Positions 9,944 through 33,224 of a stretch of DNA of 33,224 nt are shown here, in pieces; position 1 is the first letter of the stretch, and each line of letters starts with the position of its first letter. The notes below the pieces were generated by a model. That model did not search any database, was not told the origin of the DNA, and saw only the letters and a list, made by a program, of their open reading frames with translations. A program made the translations under genes and the position numbers. The DNA is taken from NCBI GenBank assembly GCA_903854475.1, contig CAINWP010000329.1, forward strand, positions 1 through 33,224, in the 5' to 3' direction. This stretch comes from an uncultured Verrucomicrobiota bacterium. Lineage in GTDB: Bacteria; Verrucomicrobiota; Verrucomicrobiia; Limisphaerales; UBA9464.

Positions 9944-10765
9944 TCAGGCGAGTTTGACAGTGCAGAAACCAAGCCCGGTGGTTCCGTTGCCGCCGAATTG
10001 AAGCAGTTGCTCGGTGGCGAGCGATTTGAACACCTCGTTTCCACCGTTCGGTTTCCGCGTTTCAGTGAGGACGCTGTAAAGTAGGGTCTCGCTAGGGACC
10101 GTCTCCTCATTGAATAATCCGCCATCCTCCGCTGTTCCGGTTTCGTCGTTGATGCGGACGTGCTGGTTGACCTGGCAAGCATTGACCGAGAAATGGGAAA
10201 GGTCGCCATCGGGAAGCAAGACGAAGCGCCCTTCCGCTCCGGCCAGGACGGCGTCGCCCAAAAGAGAGCAAAGCTTCTGTTCCCAATCCTTTGGAAAATC
10301 ACCAGCCACGCCAAATCGATACTCTTCCAGCACTGCGACACCCTTGCCGGGAATCACCACCTTGTTGCCGGCCAGACAGGACATCTCTTTAGGCATCGGA
10401 GGAACCGTAAGGGAGAGGTCGGCGTCTCTCGCGAACCTCTGGAGGGCCAGCGGCGATGTTGCTAGAGCGAATGCGCCCTTCGCAGAACGCACTGGAAACA
10501 GCAGCAAACGCGCTTCGCCAAAAGAGATTTTGCCTGCGGAGAACACCTCTCCGTCACCGCCTTTGCCGAACATTTCGTCCGAATGATCCTTGCCAAGAGT
10601 AGCTAGATGATCCCTTAGGACGCCCTTGATGCTGCTGCCAGGAATGATCGGAAATCCCGTGTGCCGCTCTCGCTGCACCGGTTGGTCAATCGCGCCGACG
10701 CTGGCGCCGGCGCCAACGTGGAGTGGGGTACGCGTGAAGACGTAGAGAATACGTTTGTTGCTCAT
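9944..10765 (-). CDS. cmr4: Cmr4, backbone RAMP and target-RNA nuclease subunit
   Basis: Cmr4 forms the repeated backbone of the Cmr complex and cuts target RNA at 6-nt intervals. The N-terminus TRTPLHVGAGASVGAIDQPVQRERHTGFPIIPGSSIKG is characteristic. Asp27 (GAIDQPVQ) matches the catalytic Asp of known Cmr4 proteins. Later motifs include GKISFGEARLLLFPVRSAKG and a final LLQFGGNGTTGLGFCTVKL, the glycine-rich RAMP loop. The 273-residue length is typical. The 51-bp gap upstream holds a CGGACGTCCG palindrome, so the gene may have extra regulation even though it lies inside the operon. Confidence 0.96.
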   Translation of the reverse strand: MSNKRILYVFTRTPLHVGAGASVGAIDQPVQRERHTGFPIIPGSSIKGVLRDHLATLGKDHSDEMFGKGGDGEVFSAGKISFGEARLLLFPVRSAKGAFALATSPLALQRFARDADLSLTVPPMPKEMSCLAGNKVVIPGKGVAVLEEYRFGVAGDFPKDWEQKLCSLLGDAVLAGAEGRFVLLPDGDLSHFSVNACQVNQHVRINDETGTAEDGGLFNEETVPSETLLYSVLTETRKPNGGNEVFKSLATEQLLQFGGNGTTGLGFCTVKLA

Positions 10766-10805
10766 GGTTTGATGATTCTTGTTGGGTGCTTCAAAGTCAT
10801 GGTTG

Positions 10806-10815
10806 CGGACGTCCG
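10806..10815. promoter_or_regulatory. CGGACGTCCG palindrome between cmr3 and cmr4
   Basis: A perfect 10-bp palindrome immediately after the cmr3 stop codon (which ends at 10817) and 41 bp upstream of the cmr4 start. It shares its outer TG and G with the copy at 3135-3144. Confidence 0.45.
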
Positions 10816-10816
10816 G

Positions 10817-12184
10817 TCAGGTCCCGAGGAACCGCCAGGTGCTGCAGACGCCGAGGCCGAAGCCTTTTTCACCCATAAGCGTGCTGCGGCGGTTGCGGAT
10901 TGTTTTTTGGTCCTCCTCATGGCCGTGCCAGTTGAGAGCGGCTGCAAGATTGCAAGCGTCCTGCTCGGAATGGGCTTCGAAGTAGTAAACGGCCCCCGCA
11001 GGGACGGCGAGGTGGGTGGATTTGGCACCCGCCTCCTTTCGGTCAGTTTCATTGGCCAAAGCCCATCCAGTGACCGGAATGGGCTTGGGTACGATTGCAG
11101 CGACGAGTCTGGCGGCGATCTCCGTGGAATCATCCCCGAAACCCCTCGTGTGCTTCCCGGAATAGCTGCGGTTCCTCCGGTTGCCTGAGCGCAGCATCAC
11201 CTTTCCGTGGGTCTGGTGCACCCAATTCGGCAGCCACCCACCGTGATGGGGGGTCATGAGGCGTCCATCCTTGGACTTTGCCGGAATCTCGGGCCACACG
11301 GCGGGTGACAGCAGGATCCACTTCACCAACCACCGTTTTTCTCCGCCGGCTTCCCTGCAATCGAACGCTCTGATTTTGCCCCGCGGCAGCGGTAGCGGCA
11401 TTCCTTCAACTCGTGAAGCGGTGCAGAGCCGTTGCTGTCCGCCCACGAGGATCTGCTCAGGTCCGTGGAATAAATCCAGAATCAGGTCCTTCCGATCGGA
11501 GGTTCCGTTCTTTTCCTGAGTCTGGGCAAAGACCCCCAGTCTCCAGTTGTCGCGCAGGCGCAAGTAGCGTGCGGAGTAGATTTTCCCGGCAGCCTCTCCC
11601 TGCCCGGTGGTGCCGGTTTCAGTATCGATGGCGATGCCGATGCTCGCCTCGGCGTCGGAGAAGGTGGATTCGTCAATGGACTGACCGTCCTCCAATGTGC
11701 AAGTAGCTCCATCTAGATACCGTTGGAATGCGTCGGCGCGCAGCCAGGCTTTTGCCTTGGCCTCTTTGGAAGGCGGTAGGCGGTTGGCCACGGCATAGTC
11801 CAGAGGTTCGGGCAGGCTGGAGTGGGCTGCGTCGAAGATGTTTACCGGCGCCAGAGCGGGTTGGAGCGTATCGTCAAGAAGGTCCAACGGGCGGGGTAGA
11901 TACCACTGATCGGTTGCAGACGGACCGGTTTGAACCGGAAACGGACCGGCCGTCACCAGCGAGCCAAAGCGCCGGTTGTCTTGGCCATGACGTTGAGCTC
12001 CATGGCGCTGGTCATGTGCGTGGCTTTCTTGCGCAAGTCCGGATCGGTGCAAGGCAGCGTGTAATGCAGCATCGGTGACATTCGGGAGTGGCCAGGCGGC
12101 ACCATGTCCGGCCAGTGAGCCTTCCATGGGCCGTCCATCCCGGAAGAACAGGATGTCAGTGGGTCGGAGCAGGATCGTGTTCAT
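10817..12184 (-). CDS. cmr3: Cmr3, type III-B RAMP protein
   Basis: Cmr3 is the Cas5-like RAMP that caps the complex at the crRNA 5' handle and binds Cas10. The N-terminal signature LLRPTDILFFRDGRPMEGS is diagnostic. The C-terminus MGEKGFGLGVCSTWRFLG is the glycine-rich RAMP loop. The 455-residue length is at the larger end of the family. Its ATG overlaps the cas10 stop codon (ATGA), showing translational coupling. Confidence 0.95.
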   Translation of the reverse strand: MNTILLRPTDILFFRDGRPMEGSLAGHGAAWPLPNVTDAALHAALHRSGLAQESHAHDQRHGAQRHGQDNRRFGSLVTAGPFPVQTGPSATDQWYLPRPLDLLDDTLQPALAPVNIFDAAHSSLPEPLDYAVANRLPPSKEAKAKAWLRADAFQRYLDGATCTLEDGQSIDESTFSDAEASIGIAIDTETGTTGQGEAAGKIYSARYLRLRDNWRLGVFAQTQEKNGTSDRKDLILDLFHGPEQILVGGQQRLCTASRVEGMPLPLPRGKIRAFDCREAGGEKRWLVKWILLSPAVWPEIPAKSKDGRLMTPHHGGWLPNWVHQTHGKVMLRSGNRRNRSYSGKHTRGFGDDSTEIAARLVAAIVPKPIPVTGWALANETDRKEAGAKSTHLAVPAGAVYYFEAHSEQDACNLAAALNWHGHEEDQKTIRNRRSTLMGEKGFGLGVCSTWRFLGT

Positions 12185-22639: not shown

Positions 22640-24175
22640 TCAGAAGACCGGGCCCAAGGGCCAGGGGGCGAACTCCTCGTCGCCAATGCCAGCGTGCTCG
22701 CTCTTGGTGCGCTCGCCATTGGCCGCAGCGAGGATGGCCTCGAAGATGCGTTGTCCCACTTGGGGAATAGTTTCCTCGCCATCCAGAATCGTGCCGGCAT
22801 TGAGGTCGATGTCGCCTTCCATCCAGCGGTAGAGCGGTGTGTGTGTGGACACCTTAATGCAGGGAGCCGGCTTGCAGCCGTACACACTGCCGCGACCCGT
22901 GGTGAACACTCCCACGTTGCAGCCGCCGGCCACCAATCCCGTCATGCTCACCGGGTCGTAGCCGGGCGTATCCATGAAGCACAGGCCGGGCCCGGTGATC
23001 GTTTGGGCATACTGCAGCACCGACATGAGCGGGGCTTGGCCGCCTTTGGCCACGGCGCCGAGGCTCTTTTCGAAGAGGGTCGTCAGGCCGCCCTCTTTGT
23101 TGCCGGCCGAGGGGTTGTTACTCATCGAAGCCCCGTGCTTCCGGGCATGGTCTTCCCACCAGCGAATCCGTTCGAGCAGCGCATCGGACACCTCTCGGCT
23201 CACCGCGCGACGGGTGAGCAGGTGTTCGGCCCCATAAATCTCCGGGGTCTCGGCCAAGACCGTCGTGCCGCCGTGGCGAATAATTTGGTCGGAAGCCCAT
23301 CCCAGGGCCGGGTTGGCGGTGATACCGCTGTGGCCGTCGGAACTGCCGCAGTTCAAGGCGACGAGCAGGCGGCTCAGTGGCTGGGTCGAACGGCGCTGCG
23401 CGGCGACCGCCGGCAACAGGCCGGCAACGGCCTTCACGGCGTCCTCCACGGTCCGGGCCATCCCGCCCTGTTGCTGGATGTTCAACACCAGCGGGGGTTC
23501 CCCACCGCCCTCCGGTTGGTCGAGCCCGTGCCGGCGCACCAGCGCGGCCGCCTGGTTGGTCTCGCACCCGAGGCCGATGATCACGTAGGCGCCGATGTTG
23601 GGATGGCGGGCGATGCCGGCCAGCACGCGCTGGAGGATCTCCGTGCCCTGGTCGGCGGTGGCGCAACCGGCCTTGTGGGTGAAGGCCACCACGCCGTCCA
23701 CGCCGGGGAAGTCGCGTCGCAGCGCCTCGGGCGTGAACCGCCGAGCCACGAATTGAGAGACGCTGGCCGAGCAGTTCACCGACGAGATCACCGCCACGTA
23801 GTTGCGCGTGCCGGCCCGGCCGCCCGGGCGCGTGAAGCCCTGGAAGGTGCGCCGTTCCGCCTCGGGCAGGAGGTCCCATGGCGCGGTGGGAGCCACGAAA
23901 TGGTCGCCCGTGGCCAGTTCGCCGGTGTCGACATTGTGCACATGCACATGGGCCCCGGCCGGGATGTCCACCGAGGCGCGGCCGATGAACTGCCCGTACT
24001 TGCGGATGGGGCTGCCCTGGGCCAGCGGATGGAGCGCCACCTTGTGCGCGGCCGGGATCGCCCCGGTCAGCCGGAGGTGGCCAGCCTGCTCGCCGGCCAG
24101 CAGCCGTCGCCGGGCCACGGCGACGTCGTCGTCGGGATGAAGCCGGATCAGCACCTCGTCTTGGTTCGCGCTCAT
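22640..24175 (-). CDS. uxaA: UxaA-family altronate dehydratase (copy 1, complete)
   Basis: UxaA dehydrates D-altronate to 2-keto-3-deoxygluconate, the substrate of KDG kinase. The N-terminal SAF domain spans about residues 1-95 (DEVLIRLHPDDDVAVARRRLLAGE, HKVALHPLAQGSPIRKYGQFIG). The large domain follows, with GGRAGTRNYVAVISSVNCSASV, FTHKAGCATADQG, GLGCETNQAAAL, NCGSSDGHSGITANPALGWASD, then SNNPSAGNKEGGLTTLFEKSLGAVAKGGQAPL and the final TKSEHAGIGDEEFAPWPLGPVF. The start is set at the ATG 24175 (MSANQDEV); a GTG 15 bases upstream is in frame. A paralogous C-terminus lies at the right end of the window. Confidence 0.93.
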   Translation of the reverse strand: MSANQDEVLIRLHPDDDVAVARRRLLAGEQAGHLRLTGAIPAAHKVALHPLAQGSPIRKYGQFIGRASVDIPAGAHVHVHNVDTGELATGDHFVAPTAPWDLLPEAERRTFQGFTRPGGRAGTRNYVAVISSVNCSASVSQFVARRFTPEALRRDFPGVDGVVAFTHKAGCATADQGTEILQRVLAGIARHPNIGAYVIIGLGCETNQAAALVRRHGLDQPEGGGEPPLVLNIQQQGGMARTVEDAVKAVAGLLPAVAAQRRSTQPLSRLLVALNCGSSDGHSGITANPALGWASDQIIRHGGTTVLAETPEIYGAEHLLTRRAVSREVSDALLERIRWWEDHARKHGASMSNNPSAGNKEGGLTTLFEKSLGAVAKGGQAPLMSVLQYAQTITGPGLCFMDTPGYDPVSMTGLVAGGCNVGVFTTGRGSVYGCKPAPCIKVSTHTPLYRWMEGDIDLNAGTILDGEETIPQVGQRIFEAILAAANGERTKSEHAGIGDEEFAPWPLGPVF

Positions 24176-25348: not shown

Positions 25349-26107
25349 TCAGAAGTAGTAATTGCCGAAGATGTGGACGATGCGGAGGTCCGGGCTGGGA
25401 GAGTTGGTGAGCTGGAAGCGGTTGCCGGGGACCCATTCGACGGAGCCATCGGACCACGCGCGATGGATGCCATCGAGTTCCTCGGCGTGGAACCGGAAGT
25501 CTGGATAGCGGGTGCTGGTGCGGCGGTGGAAGAATTCGAACCGCCGGGGCTCGGAGATCAGGAATTCGTCGAGGATATCGGTCCAGAGGGTGCCGCGCGA
25601 GGAGTTGAGTTTGTCGGCGGCGGAGCCCGGGTTGGCGAGGGTTGCGAATCCACCGGAGACCATGGTGGACTGTTCGATGGCACCCACGTAGAGGTATCCG
25701 GTGTAGATGCCGCCGCCGAACGCGGGGCCTTCGGCGAGGCCGGAGTCGACTGCCATTGGACAGTTGATCCAGCGGGGTTGATTGGCGCGCTTTGGCCAGG
25801 TTGGGAACTGGCCGGGCGGTAGCGTGGTCCCTAGGTAGCGGGCCATCGACTGGAGACGTTCGAGCCGGATGCCACCGGGCACCGAGGCGTCCATGGGTGG
25901 CAATTGATGGAAGTCGGAAAGGTAGGTGAGGTCGGCGATGGCGAACTGCCTGAGGTTATTGAGGCAGACAAGTCGGCGGGCCTTGAGCCGGGCGCGGCCG
26001 AGGGCAGGCAGGAGCAGCGAGGCGAGGAACGCAATGATCGCGATCACGACCAACAGTTCGATCAGGGTGAAGGCACCCGCGAAGCTGGGGCGCGGGGTGC
26101 GGATCAC
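25349..26107 (-). CDS. prepilin-type (type II pseudopilin-like) protein
   Basis: A class III signal is visible: a short basic leader, then [32 protein letters not shown], with prepilin peptidase cleavage expected before Phe13 and the conserved Glu at position 5 of the mature protein. The C-terminus has [14 protein letters not shown], similar to the DG-containing ending of the many verrucomicrobial H-x9-DG pseudopilins. The start is a GTG at 26107 whose GTGA overlaps the stop of the upstream gene. Such proteins may form secretion pseudopili or be surface proteins; the partner genes for a secretion system are not in this window. Confidence 0.85.
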
Positions 26108-27045
26108 GGCTGGACGACCCGGAAGTAGCGGGCGGCGACGGTGGCGGAGATTTCGATGGGGATCGAGGCTTTGCCGGAGTCGTCGATGGTTCCCGAGGCC
26201 ACGGTGCTCCATCCGTTGAGGGGCAGGGCGAGGTCCGTGCTGGCGACGAGAGTGAAGGTGGAACCCGGGGTGCCTTCGGAGATACGGATGCGCAGGGAGT
26301 CGCCCGAGGTTTTGGTGCCGGAGAGGACCGGTGGTTGGGGACGGACAGAAGACCTGCCGGTGAACGTGAAGTCTCCGACGTCGCGAAGTGCGTCGGCGGG
26401 GGTGGCGTACAGGAAATTGGCGATCTCGAACGACACGGCGAGGTTGCCGGACAGGGTGAAGCCGTCCGGATGCTCGGTGACTTGGACGTTGAGGATGTCG
26501 AAGTTGGCGACGCTGGGGGCGATGTTGCCCTTGAGGTGCCAGCCTGAGCCGCCGAAGCGGTGGCGTGCGGCGCTGTATAGGAGCGTGTAGTCACCGTAGA
26601 GCAGACCGCCCCCGCTGCTGACCTTGAAGCGGACGATGCCCCCGAGGCCGATGCTTCCGGTGTGGCTGGTGAGTTCGCCGGAGGTGTACTCGAAGGTGGT
26701 GGGCTGGGTGGTCCGGCCCATCTGGTTCGTGACGGTGGGCCCGTTCATGAGCAGGACCAATCCGGAATACGAGGTGGTGGGAAGGGGGTCCGACAGGATC
26801 TGGTCGTAGTTGCGGGCGTTGCCGGCGGCCTGATCGAAGAAGGCGTCCAACCGGAGCACGGGCATCGCGGCACCGAGGCCGGAGGCCAGGGAGTCCCAGG
26901 CAGATTCATCCAGGTCCAGTCGGGCCTCGCCCGACATGAGGGCGTCGGCGAGCAGGCTCGTGGCCTGGGAAAAAAGTGCGACTGCCGGCAAAAAGGCTGC
27001 CCGGATGAGGCGACGCGCGGGATAGATTCTGAAGGCTTGGGCCAT
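26104..27045 (-). CDS. secreted paralog of the PEP-CTERM protein, without sorting signal
   Basis: This 313-residue protein has an N-terminal hydrophobic export segment (about residues 14-33). Residues 40-235 are a paralog of the next upstream gene, sharing [54 protein letters not shown], then [16 protein letters not shown]. It lacks the PEP-CTERM tail and instead has a ~70-residue C-terminal beta-rich segment ([22 protein letters not shown] then ARYFRVVQP), a form frequent at the end of exported proteins in this phylum. It starts 3 bp after the PEP-CTERM gene stop. Function unknown. Confidence 0.8.
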
Positions 27046-27048
27046 GGC

Positions 27049-27801
27049 TCAGCGACCCGACATGGAACGGTGGGCCCGGCGTGAGAACGGCAACAGTGCA
27101 GCGAGCGAGAGCAGCGCGATCGTGGACGGTTCGGGAACCGCATTGACGCCGGTGAAGGTGAAGGTTCCGACGTTTCGGAGGGTGTCGGTCGGGGTGTTCA
27201 AGAGTAAGTTGGCCACTTCGAAGGTGACACCCATGTCGCCGGACAGCGTGAACCCGGCCGGGGATTCCGCGATGCTGACGCTGGTCAGGTCGAAGAGCGC
27301 GGCGGCCGGAGGGATGTTGCCCTTGAGGAACCATCCACTTCCGCCGACGAGCGTGCGGTTGATGTCGTACTGGAGGGTCAGGTCTCCCATGAGTAGGGAT
27401 CCGCCGATGCCACCGAAGACGTCGAAGCGTGCGACGCCGCCGAGGCCGATGACACCGGTGTGCCCTGCAAGGTCGCCGGCGGAGTAGGAGAAGGTGGTAG
27501 GCTGGGCGGTGCGGCCGTCGAGGTTAACGACGGATGTGCCATTCATCCCGTAGATCTGACCCGTATAAGTCGAGCCGGGGATCAGGTCGGTGCCGAGTTG
27601 GGCGGCGGTCCGGGAGGCGGACTCGGACTGGTTGAAGTAGGTGGAGAGGGTGAGGACGGGTGCTGGTCCTAGGCCGGAGCCGAGGGCTTCGACGCCCGAC
27701 TGGCTGTAGTTGAGGATGGCGGAGCCGCTGGAGAGGGTTGCGGCGAGGGTGGTCAGCCCGGCGAGGGCGGCGGTGGCGAGGGTTAGGGCGGCTTTGTTCA
27801 T
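27049..27801 (-). CDS. PEP-CTERM exported protein
   Basis: This 250-residue protein has a signal peptide (MNKAALTLATAALAGLTTLA) and a C-terminal PEP-CTERM sorting signal: VPEPSTIALLSLAALLPFSRR, with PEP at 223-225, a hydrophobic helix and a basic end. Such proteins are processed by an exosortase (EpsH) and released to the surface or matrix; that enzyme is not in this window. The central domain is shared with the downstream gene, evidence of tandem duplication. A hairpin covers its ribosome binding site (27804-27824), and a RegA-like inverted repeat lies 70 bp upstream. Function unknown. Confidence 0.88.
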   Translation of the reverse strand: MNKAALTLATAALAGLTTLAATLSSGSAILNYSQSGVEALGSGLGPAPVLTLSTYFNQSESASRTAAQLGTDLIPGSTYTGQIYGMNGTSVVNLDGRTAQPTTFSYSAGDLAGHTGVIGLGGVARFDVFGGIGGSLLMGDLTLQYDINRTLVGGSGWFLKGNIPPAAALFDLTSVSIAESPAGFTLSGDMGVTFEVANLLLNTPTDTLRNVGTFTFTGVNAVPEPSTIALLSLAALLPFSRRAHRSMSGR

Positions 27802-27803
27802 GC

Positions 27804-27824
27804 GATCCCCGGAAATGGGGGATC
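27804..27824 (-). promoter_or_regulatory. hairpin over the ribosome binding site of the PEP-CTERM gene
   Basis: On the minus strand GATCCCC, a 7-nt loop, and GGGGATC form a perfect 7-bp stem that ends 2 nt before the ATG at 27801. The Shine-Dalgarno-like GGGGA lies in the second arm, so folding would hide it. This suggests control of translation of the PEP-CTERM operon. Confidence 0.5.
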
Positions 27825-27870
27825 TGGTAGTGTGTTGCCATCGACGGTGGTCGCATCAAGAATGGTACAT

Positions 27871-27885
27871 GCGGCAAATTGCCGC
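27871..27885. promoter_or_regulatory. RegA-like inverted repeat upstream of the PEP-CTERM operon
   Basis: GCGGC-AAATT-GCCGC, perfect half-sites with a 5-bp spacer (the dyad extends to 7+7 around one base). It lies 70 bp upstream of the PEP-CTERM start and 23 bp after the cytochrome stop. No T-run follows on the minus strand, so a terminator is less likely. Confidence 0.5.
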
Positions 27886-27908
27886 CCGCAGGTGCCCCTT
27901 CCAAGAGA

Positions 27909-28859
27909 TCATTCAGAGAGGATCGCATCCCATCGGTAACCGTAGACCCAATCGATGAGGAGATCGCGTTCGGCCGGCGGTATCTTCGCTCCGAGCGCGG
28001 GCATCGGGACCGTTCCCCATTTTCCAGAACCACCGTTCATCACTTGAACCATGAGGATCGCCCGGGCATCAGGAGCATCTTTATAACGCGCTGCCACGTC
28101 CCGTAAAGCCGGGCCAACTGCCTTAATGTCCGGGTTGTGGCAGTTCATGCAGGTATGCTTGCTCGCCAGCGCAATGCTCGCCTTGTTGTTGGCCGACAGG
28201 AACCGTGAAGCCATCAGTTGCCACTCTCCTGAAACCTTCAGAGGAATTCCGAAGACGTTCACCTGGCCTGGTGGTACATCCCGATCCCTCAAAGTCCGAG
28301 GAAGCACCAGCGTCACCTCGCCTGAATCACCTCGGACGACGGCCTTGCCTGAACCATCGAATCTGGGCGCTACGAACGAGACGTTGGTGAGCTGCACATA
28401 CTTGTTGGCCAACGGTAGTGCATCCTTGAAGAACGATGCACCGCGAGGTTCGGACGCTCCGAAGGCTCGGTTGGTCGCATTCACCGTGACCGCCCCTTCC
28501 CGCGCTATCAGCGCTCCGAATCCCATCGGGCCCGTGCCGAGTTTTCCGGATAGCGACAGCTCGTTCCGGACGACTACCTTTGCAGCATCGGCCTTGGCAA
28601 AATGAACGGGGACCGCCGCTTCACCGGGTGCCTGGACATAGGCCAAGACCGAACCGTCCTGCAAAGTCGCACGTGCACTGACAATGCCATTGATTTCGTG
28701 GGTCGTGTCGGAATCGGTGACCTTGGAAGAAGCTGGGTCGAGACTCTTCAGCACCGTGGCGATGTTCGCCGCCTCAAGACCTCCCGCGAGCACGACTCCT
28801 GACAGCGCGACGATCCATTTCTCGAGGGCGTTCCGACCGATCCAATTGTTTCGCTTCAT
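27909..28859 (-). CDS. exported c-type cytochrome with N-terminal beta-rich domain
   Basis: The 316-residue protein has a signal segment (ALEKWIVALSGVVLAGGLEAAN). A central region of about 190 residues with several VxL-type strands (residues 35-225) matches no family I can name. The C-terminal domain is a class I cytochrome c: KHTCMNCHNPDIKAVGPALRDVAARYKD (Cys237, Cys240, His241) and WGTVPMPALG with Met286 as the likely sixth ligand, like c551-type cytochromes. The start is the ATG at 28859, chosen from the signal; the frame is open to 28949. It is downstream of regA, with a RegA-like half-palindrome 51 bp before its start. Confidence 0.9.
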   Translation of the reverse strand: MKRNNWIGRNALEKWIVALSGVVLAGGLEAANIATVLKSLDPASSKVTDSDTTHEINGIVSARATLQDGSVLAYVQAPGEAAVPVHFAKADAAKVVVRNELSLSGKLGTGPMGFGALIAREGAVTVNATNRAFGASEPRGASFFKDALPLANKYVQLTNVSFVAPRFDGSGKAVVRGDSGEVTLVLPRTLRDRDVPPGQVNVFGIPLKVSGEWQLMASRFLSANNKASIALASKHTCMNCHNPDIKAVGPALRDVAARYKDAPDARAILMVQVMNGGSGKWGTVPMPALGAKIPPAERDLLIDWVYGYRWDAILSE

Positions 28860-28909
28860 GGGAGAGAAGCATAGCGGGCACGCACTGCGATGATTCAAAC
28901 GTTTAGACT

Positions 28910-28924
28910 GCGGCAAAATGCCCT
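28910..28924. promoter_or_regulatory. RegA-like site upstream of the cytochrome gene
   Basis: GCGGC-AAAAT-GCCCT; the left half and spacer are identical to the site at 32784-32798 and the right half is degenerate. It lies 51 bp upstream of the cytochrome start, in the 103-bp gap after the response regulator gene. Confidence 0.45.
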
Positions 28925-28962
28925 GATCAGCGAGCCAACGGAAGGACATGTGAGGTCATGCA

Positions 28963-29505
28963 TCAACGGATTGGGGGATATTTGCCCAGCTTGCGTTGGA
29001 GGGTGCGTCGATCGATCCCGAGCCAACGGGCAGCCTGCGAGACGTTTCCGTCGCAGTCGGTCAGGACCCGTTGGATATGCTCCCACTCCACCCGGTCGAG
29101 GGAAGGTGTCTCCGGCGGAACCTCCTTGGAGTTGCTCTGGATGAGCCGCTCCCCCCGCAAGGCGGCGAGGATCTGTTCCGCGTCTGCCGGCTTGGTCAGG
29201 TAGTCGCGGGCTCCCCATCGGACTGCCTCCATCGCAGTCGCGATGCTGCCGAAACTGGTGAGCACCACGACAGGCCTCTCGGGATGCTCGGCATGGAGTT
29301 CGCGGACCAGACTGAGCCCATGACCGTCCGGAAGGCGCAGGTCGACAACGGCGGCATCCGGTCCGTCTTGTCTCCATGTCACCATGGCCGCAGCGCAGCT
29401 GCCTGAGACAAACACTTCGCATCCCCTGGCGACTAGAGCTTTGCGGAGGCGTTCTGAGAAGACTTGGTCGTCCTCGACCAGCAGGAGCGAGGTGTGATTC
29501 TTCAT
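28963..29505 (-). CDS. regA: RegA/PrrA-like response regulator
   Basis: This 180-residue two-domain regulator has a receiver domain with the acidic pocket LVEDD (Asp12, Asp13), phospho-acceptor Asp55 in VVDLRLPDG, Thr/Ser in VLTSFGS and Lys105 in YLTKP. The C-terminus is a Fis-type helix-turn-helix (DGNVSQAARWLGIDRRTLQRKLGK, residues 152-175), the architecture and size of RegA/PrrA/ActR. The start ATG overlaps the kinase stop (ATGA). In Proteobacteria, RegA controls respiratory and other energy genes according to redox state. The neighbouring copper-chaperone and cytochrome genes suggest a similar role here. Confidence 0.92.
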   Translation of the reverse strand: MKNHTSLLLVEDDQVFSERLRKALVARGCEVFVSGSCAAAMVTWRQDGPDAAVVDLRLPDGHGLSLVRELHAEHPERPVVVLTSFGSIATAMEAVRWGARDYLTKPADAEQILAALRGERLIQSNSKEVPPETPSLDRVEWEHIQRVLTDCDGNVSQAARWLGIDRRTLQRKLGKYPPIR

Positions 29506-30770
29506 GACTCGCGGATCGCAGGATGCGGGATGAACAGGACAGCGTCGGTTCTTCCGTCGGATGTGGTTTCGAGGTTGAAGGATCCTCCCAGCCGATCGGC
29601 AAGCAGGCGCACGAGGAACAAGCCGAGGCCGGTTCCCTTCCCGGGCGGCTTGGTTGTGAAGAACGGTTCTCCTGCACGGATACGCACTTCTTCTGGAATA
29701 GGGGTGCCTCGATTCGAGATCCGGAACAGGATCCCGTTGACAGGCCGTTCCACGGAACACTGGACATCTTGACCCGGCAGACTCGCGTCGATTCCGTTTC
29801 TCACGAGCGCCACCAGCGCTTGGATGAGGGCTTCCGGGGGTGCATGAACCTCGATCCCGGATGCCTGGGCTCTGCAAGACAATCGATCAGGAAACCGCTC
29901 GCCAAGTTCCACCAGCACCTGATCCACCGGGATGGTATGTGGTTGATCCCCGGACTGGGTCTGTAGTCGGTCGAGAATCCGCCGACAGCGATGGGATTCT
30001 TCACGGATCAGGTCGGCGTCCTCTGCAAGATCTGGATCCTGCGGATACCTTCTGGCTGCCCGAGCGAGTTCACCCGCGGCGATGGTGATCGTTCCGAGAG
30101 GAGTGCCCAATTCATGAGCCGCACCGGCAGCCAGCGTGGCCAAGGCGGCGAAACGTTCATTGCGGACCACCGCCTGACGTGCGAGTCCGAGTTCCAAGCC
30201 ACGCCGGATTAGCGCCTGTTGCAGCCTGCTGGCAAAGAAGACGATCGCAACCGACGTCAGGATGAATGCAGTGAGCATTCCTTGCAGGTGGGTCTTCAGG
30301 GGGAGGCCGGGACCCACGCCACAAACAGCCTCGCTCAGACGGGGCAACGGCCAGAGGCCAAAGAATAGAGCAGCGAAACCGGAGCAACAGACCCCGGCCA
30401 CCAAAGTGGTCCAGAGAGGTGGCAAGGCGACCGCGGCAAGCGCGAGGTGGGCCAGATAGAAAGTGCTGAACGGATTGTGCGGACCACCGGTATAATGCAG
30501 GACGGTGGTCAATTGGAGGGCATCCAACACCATGCACGATGCGAGAAACGGAGGGGATTCGCCGCTTCCCACAGGAACCCTGTGAAGCACCAAATTCGTG
30601 AAGACGGTGAATCCGATGCAGATCCAAACGACGAGCATCGGCAGAGGTATTTGGAGCACAAGATTGACCCAAAGGACCGTGGCTGCCTGTCCTCCGGCGG
30701 ACGTCCACCGGAGTCGGCGCAGCCAAGGTAGCGTCAACTCGGATATCCTTGATGATTGAGCCTCCATCAT
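29502..30770 (-). CDS. regB: RegB/PrrB-like redox-sensing histidine kinase
   Basis: This 422-residue kinase has about six membrane helices in the first 185 residues. The loop YTGGPHNPFSTFYL (GGPHNPF at 95-101) matches the ubiquinone-linked GGxxNPF motif of RegB. The H-box AAGAAHELGTPLGTI carries the phospho-His219 in the RegB form. Cys262 in EESHRCRRIL is at the place of the redox-active Cys of RegB. The ATP-binding part has an N-box (VRNGIDAS) and GKGTGLGLFLV. The ATG overlaps the stop of the SCO-CusF gene and its own stop overlaps regA, so all three are translationally coupled. Confidence 0.93.
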   Translation of the reverse strand: MMEAQSSRISELTLPWLRRLRWTSAGGQAATVLWVNLVLQIPLPMLVVWICIGFTVFTNLVLHRVPVGSGESPPFLASCMVLDALQLTTVLHYTGGPHNPFSTFYLAHLALAAVALPPLWTTLVAGVCCSGFAALFFGLWPLPRLSEAVCGVGPGLPLKTHLQGMLTAFILTSVAIVFFASRLQQALIRRGLELGLARQAVVRNERFAALATLAAGAAHELGTPLGTITIAAGELARAARRYPQDPDLAEDADLIREESHRCRRILDRLQTQSGDQPHTIPVDQVLVELGERFPDRLSCRAQASGIEVHAPPEALIQALVALVRNGIDASLPGQDVQCSVERPVNGILFRISNRGTPIPEEVRIRAGEPFFTTKPPGKGTGLGLFLVRLLADRLGGSFNLETTSDGRTDAVLFIPHPAIRES

Positions 30771-31636
30771 CTGCTCCTGCTGGCTTCAAGCAGGGTCTTT
30801 GCCAACTCTGTCGCCGTCCAACCATTGCCGTCGAATTGACGGTGAATTCTTCCAGTGGCATCGAGAACCACGGTTCGAAGATTGTGCGAAAACCCGTCAC
30901 TGTCAGGGACTATTCTCAGATCGAGGCGTGGCGCGATATTCGACAGGGTGTTGGCGCTCAGCACTCCGAACGACCATCCGGTTGATACGCCCTCCCTTGA
31001 GGCCTCTGCATATCGGCCGAGTACCTCCGGAGTGTCGAAGCCTGGATCGAAGGAAAGAGACAGCAGTTTCCAACGGGTGGACCCGTCTGAGTTTTTTAGA
31101 AGGAGTTCCCGTGCATCATGGAAGTTGCGAGTCATTCTCGGACAAAATTCCGGAAGTGGACAGCGGGTGAACACGAAGGTGAACGCCACCGAGTTTCCCC
31201 GATAATCGGAGATTCGCCGGATACTTCGGTCCTCCGCCAGCCATTCGAAATCGGGCATCATCTGCCCGTTGGTCAACTCGGAACCGGTTTGGCGGATGGA
31301 TGCAGAAGCAGGTGCTTTCGGCGTCTGATGCCCGGTCCTCTCGATAGAATCTATCCAATGTTCATCGGCTCCGATGTGGATTCGAAAACGCACCTCGTCG
31401 CCCTCCCTGAGTCCATTCAACGAATTGGAATCCCGAACATTGAGGGTCATGGTCATCTTTGGCATCACACCGGGGATCTCGTCGTGGCGGATCACGACAG
31501 AGTGTCCGTCTGTCGAAAATTCACGGATTATGCCTGTCGCGTCATGGGACCTGACCGTCTTCGGCGACACAGGCGCTCGATCACATCCGACGATGATTAA
31601 CAGGAGCGCCAGGAGAGGTGATGTGATCCTTTGCAT
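30767..31636 (-). CDS. SCO1/SenC-type copper chaperone lipoprotein with N-terminal CusF-like domain
   Basis: The N-terminus is a lipoprotein signal (lipobox IVGC, Cys18). Residues about 30-100 form a CusF-like copper-binding domain: VVIRHDEIPGVMPKMTMTL supplies His51, Met61 and Met63, spaced as the CusF ligands. Residues 120-289 are a SCO1/SenC thioredoxin fold. The copper motif is TRCPLPEFCPRM, where the two Cys (159, 165) are five residues apart rather than the usual three; the later ligand His251 lies in FSHNLRTVVLD. SCO proteins deliver copper to the CuA site of cytochrome oxidase or act as thiol redox factors. Start fixed by the signal peptide. Translationally coupled to the kinase. Confidence 0.9.
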   Translation of the reverse strand: MQRITSPLLALLLIIVGCDRAPVSPKTVRSHDATGIIREFSTDGHSVVIRHDEIPGVMPKMTMTLNVRDSNSLNGLREGDEVRFRIHIGADEHWIDSIERTGHQTPKAPASASIRQTGSELTNGQMMPDFEWLAEDRSIRRISDYRGNSVAFTFVFTRCPLPEFCPRMTRNFHDARELLLKNSDGSTRWKLLSLSFDPGFDTPEVLGRYAEASREGVSTGWSFGVLSANTLSNIAPRLDLRIVPDSDGFSHNLRTVVLDATGRIHRQFDGNGWTATELAKTLLEASRSR

Positions 31637-31683
31637 TCGGTGGTTGGAATACGGATGTCGAGGCCTTGTTCCGATTTCGGGTG

Positions 31684-32445
31684 TCAACGTTGTACGTTTG
31701 TTCGAAGGCGCACCATCGACTGGACAACCTCGGCCGGCATGCCCCTGTCCAGTCCGTCGAAGTGGAATCGAAGTGCACCCTGCTTGTCGAAAAGAGCGAC
31801 TTTCCTGAGATCCTTGAAATCTGAGGGATGGCTCGCCGGAATCGAAATCGCGGATTGATGGAGCCCGATCTGATCGATCAATGGATAGATCGCGGTCTTT
31901 TCCCCCGTCAGGAACAACCATCGGTTTGGATCGGCCCGAAAACGAGTGGCGAACCGGTTCAATACCTCCGGGGTGTCGGATCTTGGATCCACCGTAAGTG
32001 AAACCAGGACCGCATCTTCGACACCGGAGATCATGGACTGTAATTCTGCCATCCTGAGGTTTACTTTGAGGCAAGCGCTGTCACATCCGGTGAACACGAG
32101 GTTCATGATCACGAACCGGTTCTCCAGATTCGTTCTAGAAATCCGTCGGCCGTTCCTTTCGATGAGATTGAAATCGGGGATTACGTGGCACCCTTTGACC
32201 GGCATCGTCATCTCGTGTTGCTGGGTCTGCTGGATGTGGGAAAGCCACGAGGAGAGGGTGATGAGGGCAACCACCGCCCCCGTCCAGAGGAACACTTGCC
32301 TCGACCGGCCAAGTGAATCTTGTTGATGATTCGAGATGGTTCCTTCGGCTGAACTTGCCATGGGTCGGTGATTTTCCGGGGTGGCCGGCAGGTCTAAACT
32401 TCCTTTCGAGGCGAGTTGGTATCTGGACTGTGTTATTTCGGACAT
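31684..32445 (-). CDS. membrane-anchored SCO1/SenC family protein
   Basis: This 253-residue protein is anchored by one helix (VFLWTGAVVALITLSSWL, about 51-68) after an N-terminal cytoplasmic stretch. It is followed by a SCO fold: HVIPDFNLIERNGRRISRTNLENRFVIMNLVFTGCDSACLKV, with the classic CxxxC (Cys121, Cys125), then LVSLTVDPRSDTPEVLNRFATRF. The final ligand is probably the His in ASHPSDFKDLRKVALFD. The first ATG overlaps the upstream HMA gene by 13 bp; an ATG at 32361 would give a shorter tail. Two SCO genes in a row suggest separate steps in copper delivery or oxidation. Confidence 0.9.
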   Translation of the reverse strand: MSEITQSRYQLASKGSLDLPATPENHRPMASSAEGTISNHQQDSLGRSRQVFLWTGAVVALITLSSWLSHIQQTQQHEMTMPVKGCHVIPDFNLIERNGRRISRTNLENRFVIMNLVFTGCDSACLKVNLRMAELQSMISGVEDAVLVSLTVDPRSDTPEVLNRFATRFRADPNRWLFLTGEKTAIYPLIDQIGLHQSAISIPASHPSDFKDLRKVALFDKQGALRFHFDGLDRGMPAEVVQSMVRLRTNVQR

Positions 32446-32732
32446 GTGGTGATGTCGTAGCCTGATTGCTGGATGACCTTGACCAGGGCGTTCGATGAGA
32501 CGGTGTTGGTGTCGAAGCGGATGATCGCCGTTCGGTTGGAGAATGAAACCTGGGCGTCGACCACCCCGTTCAGTCGACGGAGTTCAGAACGAATTCCACC
32601 TGCGCATCCCTCGCAATGCATTCCATGGATTCCGAAAAGATTGGTCGCGTTGGGAGGGCGTTTGCGGGAATCAGCTGCGGTCAGACACAGAGCCATTCCG
32701 CCAACGCCCAAGGTAACCAGGATCCATCTCAT
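32433..32732 (-). CDS. exported heavy-metal-associated (HMA) domain protein
   Basis: This 99-residue protein has a signal peptide (MRWILVTLGVGGMALCLTAA) and one HMA ferredoxin-like domain. The metal site is GIHGMHCEGCAGGI (Cys40, Cys43), and the domain runs to VIQQSGYDITTC. In layout it resembles MerP or a periplasmic CopZ-like chaperone, most likely carrying Cu(I), given the two SCO proteins that follow. It is the first gene of the copper/RegBA operon; a perfect RegA-like inverted repeat lies 52 bp upstream of its start. Confidence 0.88.
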   Translation of the reverse strand: MRWILVTLGVGGMALCLTAADSRKRPPNATNLFGIHGMHCEGCAGGIRSELRRLNGVVDAQVSFSNRTAIIRFDTNTVSSNALVKVIQQSGYDITTCPK

Positions 32733-32763
32733 GCTGGGCTCATGATGCGAATGATCCTGATAT

Positions 32764-32779
32764 CCAAGTCGAGGCTTGG
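32764..32779. promoter_or_regulatory. short dyad CCAAG-N6-CTTGG upstream of the HMA operon
   Basis: A 5-bp inverted repeat with a 6-bp spacer, between the RegA-like site and the HMA start. It may be a second operator or chance. Confidence 0.25.
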
Positions 32780-32783
32780 AGGT

Positions 32784-32798
32784 GCGGCAAAATGCCGC
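32784..32798. promoter_or_regulatory. RegA-like inverted repeat upstream of the HMA-SCO-RegBA operon
   Basis: GCGGC-AAAAT-GCCGC, perfect half-sites, 52 bp upstream of the HMA gene start and 25 bp after the uxaA copy 2 stop. There is no T-run after the dyad on the minus strand. The form GCGGC-N5-GCCGC fits the general GCGNC-N-GNCGC consensus of RegA/PrrA. Confidence 0.55.
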
Positions 32799-32822
32799 CG
32801 ACCATTTCTCCGTTTGCTCGTC

Positions 32823-33224
32823 TCAGAAGACCGGCCCGAGTGGCCAGGGCGCGAACTCCTCGTCGCCGAGGCCGGCCTGCTCGCTCTTGGTGCGCTCGCC
32901 GCTGGCGGTGGCCAGGATGGCCTCGAAGATCCGTTCGCCCACCTGGGGGATGGTTTCGCAACCCTCGAGGATCGTTCCCGCATCCAGGTCCATGTCGTCC
33001 TGCATCCAGCGGTAGAGCGGCGTGTGGGTGGACACCTTGAGGCAGGGGGCGGGCTTGCAGCCGTACACGCTGCCACGGCCCGTGGTGAACACGCCGACAT
33101 TGCAGCCGCCGGCCACCAGGCCGGTCATGCTCACGGGGTCGTAGCCCGGGGTGTCCATGAAGCACAGGCCGGGCCCGGTGATCGTTTGGGCATACTGCAG
33201 CACCGACATGAGCGGGGCTTGGCC
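32823..33224 (-). CDS. uxaA: UxaA-family altronate dehydratase (copy 2), C-terminal part only in window
   Basis: The last 134 residues of a second UxaA are visible, running off the right edge in frame (GQAPLMSVLQYAQTITGPGL, then CFMDTPGYDPVSMTGLVAGG). It differs from copy 1 at only about a dozen of the last 128 residues, for example CLKVSTHT for CIKVSTHT and WMQDDMDL for WMEGDIDL. Similarity at DNA level stops just beyond the stop codon. The gene is presumably complete outside the window; the two copies lie in the same orientation about 10 kb apart. Confidence 0.9.
   Translation of the reverse strand, partial: GQAPLMSVLQYAQTITGPGLCFMDTPGYDPVSMTGLVAGGCNVGVFTTGRGSVYGCKPAPCLKVSTHTPLYRWMQDDMDLDAGTILEGCETIPQVGERIFEAILATASGERTKSEQAGLGDEEFAPWPLGPVF

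Follow-up and report, generated by a model that had tools for sequence, protein, structure and literature searches.

RegA, or PrrA, is a global redox regulator of the textbooks, yet the DNA sequence that it recognises has proved hard to define. In the Pseudomonadota, where the kinase and regulator pair is known as RegB/RegA, PrrB/PrrA, ActS/ActR, RegS/RegR or RoxS/RoxR, the RegA operator is of the type GCGNC-N5-GNCGC, to which the sites described here are likened. The published work reports no strong consensus from chromatin immunoprecipitation with sequencing (ChIP-seq) of Rhodobacter sphaeroides PrrA (PMC4263372) and no predictable RegA motif in Acidithiobacillus ferrooxidans (PMC5506826). 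A tree published in 2021 (PMC8191878, S3 Fig) already includes RegA and RegB from Verrucomicrobia, Planctomycetacia and Acidobacteria, so the occurrence of the pair in Verrucomicrobia is not new. Here a regBA locus was analysed in a stretch of 33,224 nucleotides (nt) from an uncultured Verrucomicrobiota bacterium (contig CAINWP010000329.1; hereafter the window), where an earlier note, made from the letters alone, had proposed a RegBA regulon outside the Proteobacteria; this proposal is supported by the analysis. Three palindromes in the window are, on comparative sequence grounds, very probably operators of the RegA-type regulator encoded between them, which would thereby govern its own operon, a c-type cytochrome and PEP-CTERM proteins.

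The three repeats lie where the earlier note had placed them. GCGGCAAAATGCCGC is present at 32784-32798, GCGGCAAATTGCCGC at 27871-27885 and GCGGCAAAATGCCCT, with a degenerate right half, at 28910-28924; the start codons that follow are at 32732 (a heavy-metal-associated, HMA, protein), 27801 (a PEP-CTERM protein) and 28859 (a cytochrome c), which confirms the noted distances of 52, 70 and 51. With flanking letters taken from relatives, the full element is a palindrome of 17 base pairs (bp), TGCGGCA-N3-TGCCGCA, longer than the GCGGC-N5-GCCGC first proposed. Predicted operators 1 (32783..32799, 51 nt upstream of the HMA start codon) and 3 (27870..27886, 69 nt upstream of the PEP-CTERM start codon) each match 13 of the 14 half-site letters, and predicted operator 2 (28909..28925, 50 nt upstream of the cytochrome c start) matches 11; none is assigned a strand. 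The shorter pattern occurs exactly twice in the window (0.19 expected; one of 100 shuffles attains two) and lies at background when two mismatches are allowed (65 against 58 expected). It proved too short for a genome scan: as written it is unspecific, because it was found at 12 places genome-wide as compared with 16 for the reversed control.

Unlike this short pattern, the core GCGGCAAAWTGCC is specific in its own genome, where its sole three exact matches in 4.44 Mb are the three window sites, all within 5 kb. The core common to these sites reads GCGGCAAA(A/T)TGCC, and GCGGCAAANTGCC occurs exactly at five places in the 4.44 Mb, N being A or T in the window sites and C in the other two. When two mismatches to TGCGGCA-N3-TGCCGCA were allowed, the genome gave 18 places against 13 in the control, so that no wider regulon of weak sites can be claimed. 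One further single-mismatch place (contig C80, L157) falls inside a called gene. The scan for sites before respiratory genes that the earlier note had suggested thus returned the present locus and no further strong intergenic site in the genome; control looks local, strong sites apparently being confined to the regBA locus apart from the one within a gene. A sigma-70 promoter scan of 27000-33224 gave one match, off the gene strand, against 1.7 in shuffles.

The sites were also compared with the consensus strings for RegR, Rhodobacter capsulatus RegA and PrrA (PMC5506826). Mismatches to the three, in that order, are 0, 0 and 2 for site 1, 1, 1 and 3 for site 2, and 1, 0 and 2 for site 3. The RegR consensus GNGRCRTTNNGNCGC is matched perfectly by site 1 on the gene strand, and this is its sole match in the window; the R. 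capsulatus string SSGNVRDNHYSNCSS is matched exactly at sites 1 and 3.

The locus encodes RegB- and RegA-like proteins, as the earlier note had read it. The kinase (29502..30770, minus strand, 422 amino acids, aa) has ActS/PrrB/RegB as its best NCBI family (E 4.8e-61, 206.9 bits, 405 of 422 residues covered), and the regulator (28963..29505, minus strand, 180 aa) is by far best matched by ActR/PrrA/RegA (E 9.8e-54, 181.9 bits). In the kinase the quinone-binding motif GGxxNPF takes the form GGPHNPF. When the window kinase was aligned with those of relatives (17 loci from 16 other genomes), G95, G96, N99, P100 and F101 of this motif, H219, E220 and P224 of the H-box, and C262 that follows it were invariant in all 18. 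Judged by its place, C262 would correspond to the redox-active Cys265 of R. capsulatus RegB. The regulator, of about 180 aa, consists of a receiver (PF00072) and a Fis-type helix-turn-helix (PF02954), and matches the solved structures of a response regulator (3rqi, E 1.1e-32) and of the photosynthetic apparatus regulatory protein (1umq, E 5.7e-13). The two reading frames overlap by 4 nt. A RegA-type gene is present in the RegB cluster at all 17 relatives' loci and adjoins the kinase gene at 16 of them; in L061, HMA and SCO genes stand in between.

In a kinase tree of 95 rows, a single branch (support 86, not starred) separates the 19 taken as Verrucomicrobiota from the other rows, those of the Pseudomonadota included; the 19 are the window, its nearest named relative L158 and the 17 loci, which share the window's order or class. 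The tree gives no sign of a recent transfer of regB from the Pseudomonadota, although its deep branches are weak. RegB/RegA is sparse: in the phylum sample at least 10 of 387 genomes gave a RegB match, and in the order RegB and RegA occur together in at least 8 of 196 genomes, where the genomes with a RegA-family protein are those with strong RegB matches. These counts are lower bounds. Weak matches confined to the kinase domain in G554, G452 and G556 (77-79 bits) were not counted as RegB, because no RegA was found in those three genomes.

L158, from a metagenome-assembled genome named 'Verrucomicrobiales bacterium', has the nearest named RegB (77% identity). Its gene order is the same, HMA-SCO-CusF/SCO-regB-regA-cytochrome, with identities of 57, 46, 62, 77, 79 and 84%, respectively. 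Before the HMA gene the longest block conserved between the two is GCGGCATTTTGCCGCA, at 52 nt from the start in one and 51 nt in the other. Before the cytochrome gene GGGCA(A/T)TTTGCCGCAG is conserved, damaged half included; site 2 is therefore maintained in imperfect form, since L158 keeps the same degenerate half. Both blocks stand in otherwise diverged intergenic DNA.

Conservation of the element with regBA extends to the more distant relatives. A site with at least 12 of 14 letters is present in 16 of the 17 relatives' loci, either no more than about 2.5 kb away from regBA or ahead of the operon that includes these genes; the remaining locus, L065, has an 11/14 site 28 nt upstream of the kinase start. 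At no more than one mismatch to TGCGGCAWWWTGCCGCA, genome-wide scans gave 23 sites in the 17 RegBA genomes (13 of them with sites) and seven in 20 RegBA-negative genomes (six with sites), against one for the reversed control, and all five perfect 17-mers are in RegBA genomes. The negative genomes were hand-picked, several for having core matches, a bias that works against the claim. By the gene calls for relatives, made with a simple codon-usage script, 21 of the 23 sites in RegBA genomes are intergenic, the L148 site touches the end of a called gene and the L056 site lies in one doubtful call; four of the seven in RegBA-negative genomes fall within called genes. In L063, L067 and L070 the site separates divergent genes, and in L156 (G078) it stands between convergent ones. 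The short pattern GCGGCAWWWTGCCNC was rejected as an order-wide marker, being unspecific. Thirty loci among its listed matches were read: in 27 of 28 RegBA-negative ones it lies within an open frame longer than 200 aa, and the full 17-mer is absent from all 28; both RegBA loci have the 17-mer, one of them (L098) also being covered by a 265-aa open frame.

The same element was sought beyond the phylum, in 80 named RegB loci together with the 17 relatives, as TGCGRCA-N3-TGYCGCA at 13/14. This gave 47 sites, spread over 39 loci; L159 and L056 (G392:C8, of the window's family) are one and the same contig, and without this duplicate 46 sites remain in 38 of 96 distinct loci. Across all 1259 half-site permutations, in place of the 300 used for the count with the duplicate, the control gave a mean of 1.6 sites and a maximum of 26, so that none reached 46. 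A site no more than 600 nt upstream of the kinase match was found at 18 loci (control mean 0.09, maximum 7, with the top values from near-neighbours of the motif such as TGCRGCA), 16 of them outside the Verrucomicrobiota, for example in Nitrosospira, Gallionella and Acidobacteria. An earlier test on the 80 named loci, with unrelaxed half-sites at 12/14, had given 34 sites, exceeded by two of 60 sampled permutations (62 and 47); it counted L159 twice, and its permutations included the motif itself. The test was superseded by the relaxed, stricter-threshold and position-aware tests given above. Among the ChIP sites published for R. capsulatus, GCGACCGTTCGTCGC at ccoN and GTGACAATTTGTCCC at cydA have the same form, and many others differ (PMC5359404).

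The genes behind the site in relatives are of recurring kinds. Homologues of the window cytochrome follow it in L057, L058, L059, L062 and L146, and HMA/SCO genes in L060, L061, L145, L147 (site 232 nt upstream) and L158. TonB-dependent receptors follow it in L063, L062 (590 nt upstream), L066 and L144, and also in the RegBA-negative L149, whose receptor (L149:5388-7553, genome G494) is 86% identical to that of the RegBA-bearing G468. By family only one, in L066, is a copper receptor (TonB-dependent copper receptor TIGR01778, 584.8 bits against a cut-off of 472.45); by score the L144 receptors belong with the siderophore receptors, and for L062 and L149 the best match is haem-type, below the cut-off. 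L144 has a tonB-exbB-exbD-receptor-PepSY set, with a 12/14 site upstream of its second receptor. A bd-oxidase-like membrane cytochrome with a C-terminal haem-c domain (CxxCH) is encoded near regBA behind the site in L068 (4337-5698), L070 (10927-12354), L071 (11674-13116) and L072 (10981-12390), and behind a 12/14 site in L056 (1-1374); its profile matches subunit I of a bd-type quinol oxidase (5doq) at E 8.5e-9. In L070 and L071 a second cytochrome c gene follows. PEP-CTERM proteins, their tails judged by eye, occur in L064, in L068 and once among the row of genes that follows the L144 site, as in the window. Several target genes in relatives have no family match.

Some further proteins near predicted operators were observed. 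Secreted proteins near operators or TonB receptors in L144 (13449-15998) and L148 (4083-4979) would, as judged by eye, have mature N-termini at or near His; the ends HEH, HAH, HLTY and HIYAGA suggest a metal ligand there. In L067 a Met/His-rich, probable outer-membrane protein (10545-11585) is divergent from regB across the operator, and neither Pfam nor NCBIfam gave a match for it at the thresholds applied. Large proteins in L058 (12488-15088) and L146 (485-3013) are 62% identical, each with an operator before it, and that of L058 matches a lactonase-type propeller and a di-haem peroxidase (MauG/CCP).

The copper-related character of the downstream genes would also suit operators of some other regulator, such as a copper sensor, that governs the same genes, and three of the seven sites in genomes without a detected RegBA are intergenic (L149, L151 and L153). 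On the other hand, sites track regB/regA over several phyla, often directly before or within the regBA cluster, and site 1 fits the RegR consensus. Moreover, G494, the source of L149, is 85% complete and of the same genus as G468; its regBA may simply be absent from the incomplete assembly. Another regulator is thus improbable. Less probable still is a role of the palindromes as intrinsic terminators for the genes upstream. Each of the three could form a short hairpin and stands some 22-38 nt beyond the predicted stop codon of a same-strand gene, and the region of site 1 folds better than shuffles (z -2.9), with a contribution from an adjacent second hairpin. In the other two regions folding is no better than in shuffled sequence (z -0.8 and +0.8), conservation concerns the sequence itself, in the AT centre and in the 17-nt frame, and sites between divergent genes do not suit termination. 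Terminators, which the earlier note had named as counting against its proposal, are not indicated: no T-run follows the GC stems and the terminator scan lists none of the three, and this reading was rejected. That GC-rich palindromes are alike here by chance or through repeats, as the genome-wide background level of the loose pattern might suggest, is scarcely credible, being contradicted by the core, 17-mer and permutation statistics and by the conservation of blocks in diverged DNA.

Several points weigh against assigning the sites to RegA. The right half of site 2 is damaged, and the stretch of L158 that corresponds to site 3 contains no such site; L158 has no PEP-CTERM homologue after the cytochrome gene. 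Agreement with SSGNVRDNHYSNCSS alone means little, because this string matches the window 81 times, and the PrrA consensus is missed by two to three letters; the fit to the known RegA/PrrA site type claimed in the earlier note stands for RegR and R. capsulatus RegA, and not exactly for PrrA. Published RegA/PrrA sites are described as degenerate, and their motifs have also been called dissimilar (PMC5506826). Kinase and regulator both miss the curated family cut-offs (206.9 against 350 bits for NF033792 and 181.9 against 250 bits for NF033791), the latter being reached in none of the 196 genomes of the order, and the absence of RegB/RegA elsewhere rests on scoring at most 4-9 and 16 candidates per genome. 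The element is thus not general to the family: of the 78 named loci left after setting aside L158 and L159, 55 gave no 13/14 site, and these include all 17 alphaproteobacterial ones. Furthermore, GCGGCAWWWTGCCNC occurs in 96 of the 196 genomes, mostly without RegBA. The co-occurrence with regB/regA, the consensus fit, the position before genes and the conservation of two of the three sites in L158 nevertheless favour the prediction of RegA-type operators.

If the palindromes are RegA operators, the membrane kinase, with its quinone motif and redox cysteine, would phosphorylate RegA in response to a signal suggested by its family. A RegA dimer would then bind TGCGGCA-N3-TGCCGCA, with the centre of the site some 58-77 nt upstream of the start codons, from where it could act on RNA polymerase, activation or repression not being readable from the sequence. 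It would control the HMA-SCO-CusF/SCO-regB-regA operon itself, the neighbouring cytochrome gene and the PEP-CTERM pair, and so might tie copper supply for respiratory proteins, and the dose of the switch itself, to the redox state of the quinones. A second input could plausibly be copper: R. capsulatus RegA binds copper and dimerises via Cys156 (PMC9147068), and in 16 of 19 regulators of Verrucomicrobiota a Cys occupies the helix position taken as equivalent. A wider reading, which we hold to be possible but rather doubtful, takes TGCGRCA-N3-TGYCGCA as an ancestral, sharp RegA element that was blurred or lost next to regBA in the Alphaproteobacteria, the group of the textbook studies, and the RegBA of Verrucomicrobiota as a dedicated copper-and-respiration module. 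As one joint proposal, this module would govern TonB-dependent copper uptake, HMA/SCO/CusF proteins, the bd-like haem-c cytochrome and surface proteins of the PEP-CTERM or His-rich kind; besides quinones it may sense copper, through the RegA cysteine. The wider reading is the less probable because the 17 alphaproteobacterial loci lack the site.

All genes of the window locus are on the minus strand. First comes the HMA-domain protein (32433..32732, 99 aa, with an N-terminal hydrophobic segment), followed by a SCO1/SenC family protein (31684..32445, 253 aa) and a CusF-like domain fused to a SCO1/SenC domain (30767..31636, 289 aa); with the kinase and regulator genes behind them, we infer that these form one operon. 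The monohaem c-type cytochrome (27909..28859, 316 aa) has an N-terminal domain of about 200 aa. The PEP-CTERM secreted protein (27049..27801, 250 aa) ends in a VPEPSTIALL...RRAHR tail and scores slightly below the Pfam PEP-CTERM cut-off (20.1 against 20.7 bits, E 0.00066). A second secreted protein (26104..27045), 49% identical to it over 230 residues and without a Pfam match, probably shares its transcript. Elsewhere in the window, 23003-23019 is identical to 33186-33202 and 22919-22933 to 33102-33116, in each case 10,183 nt apart; the second copies are part of an open frame at the end of the contig, which looks like a duplicated gene.

The recognition helix of the regulator has Asp instead of His before RR in the window and in 13 of the 18 relatives from the Verrucomicrobiota that were read. 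Where the locus has a site, a G/G site accompanies 11 of 12 D-type and 5 of 25 H-type regulators (Fisher p 5e-5, kinship ignored). A link between this residue and GGC as against GAC half-sites was not established, only two independent pairs lying on supported branches.

A rigid 17-bp palindrome that accompanies regBA in Verrucomicrobiota, and partly in other phyla, would offer a directly testable binding code from which regulons become predictable in uncultured Verrucomicrobiota, and it indicates copper supply as a core RegBA output. No RegA operator or regulon of Verrucomicrobiota was found among the top papers listed by searches of the open-licence literature, most of them judged by title and the start of the abstract. 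Novelty appears to lie in the sharpness of the operator, in its conservation alongside regBA and in the copper, cytochrome, TonB and PEP-CTERM gene set.

Among known systems, the RegR box of Bradyrhizobium japonicum agrees with site 1 at all positions and with sites 2 and 3 at all but one. The published RegR boxes have imperfect halves and a spacing different from that of the window sites (PMC4064962), and the two Bradyrhizobium loci scanned had no 13/14 site. In Methylomonas sp. DH-1 a TonB receptor and a tonB-exbB-exbD operon depend on RegA (PMC13274454), genes of the same kinds as those with an operator in L144; only the feo promoter was enriched by ChIP there, and other effects are perhaps indirect according to the authors (PMC13274454). 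With RegB/RegA of the Pseudomonadota in general the window system shares a kinase with GGxxNPF, H-box and redox Cys, a short regulator of receiver and Fis-type helix-turn-helix with an RRTLQRKL helix, a SCO/SenC gene beside the pair (PMC9147068, PMC5359404) and the control of cytochrome or oxidase genes, which in the window is predicted. It differs in that its operon adds HMA and CusF-SCO genes, its scores lie below the NCBI equivalog cut-offs, its helix has Asp for His, its strong sites are confined to the locus, and its operator, TGCGGCA-N3-TGCCGCA, is stricter.

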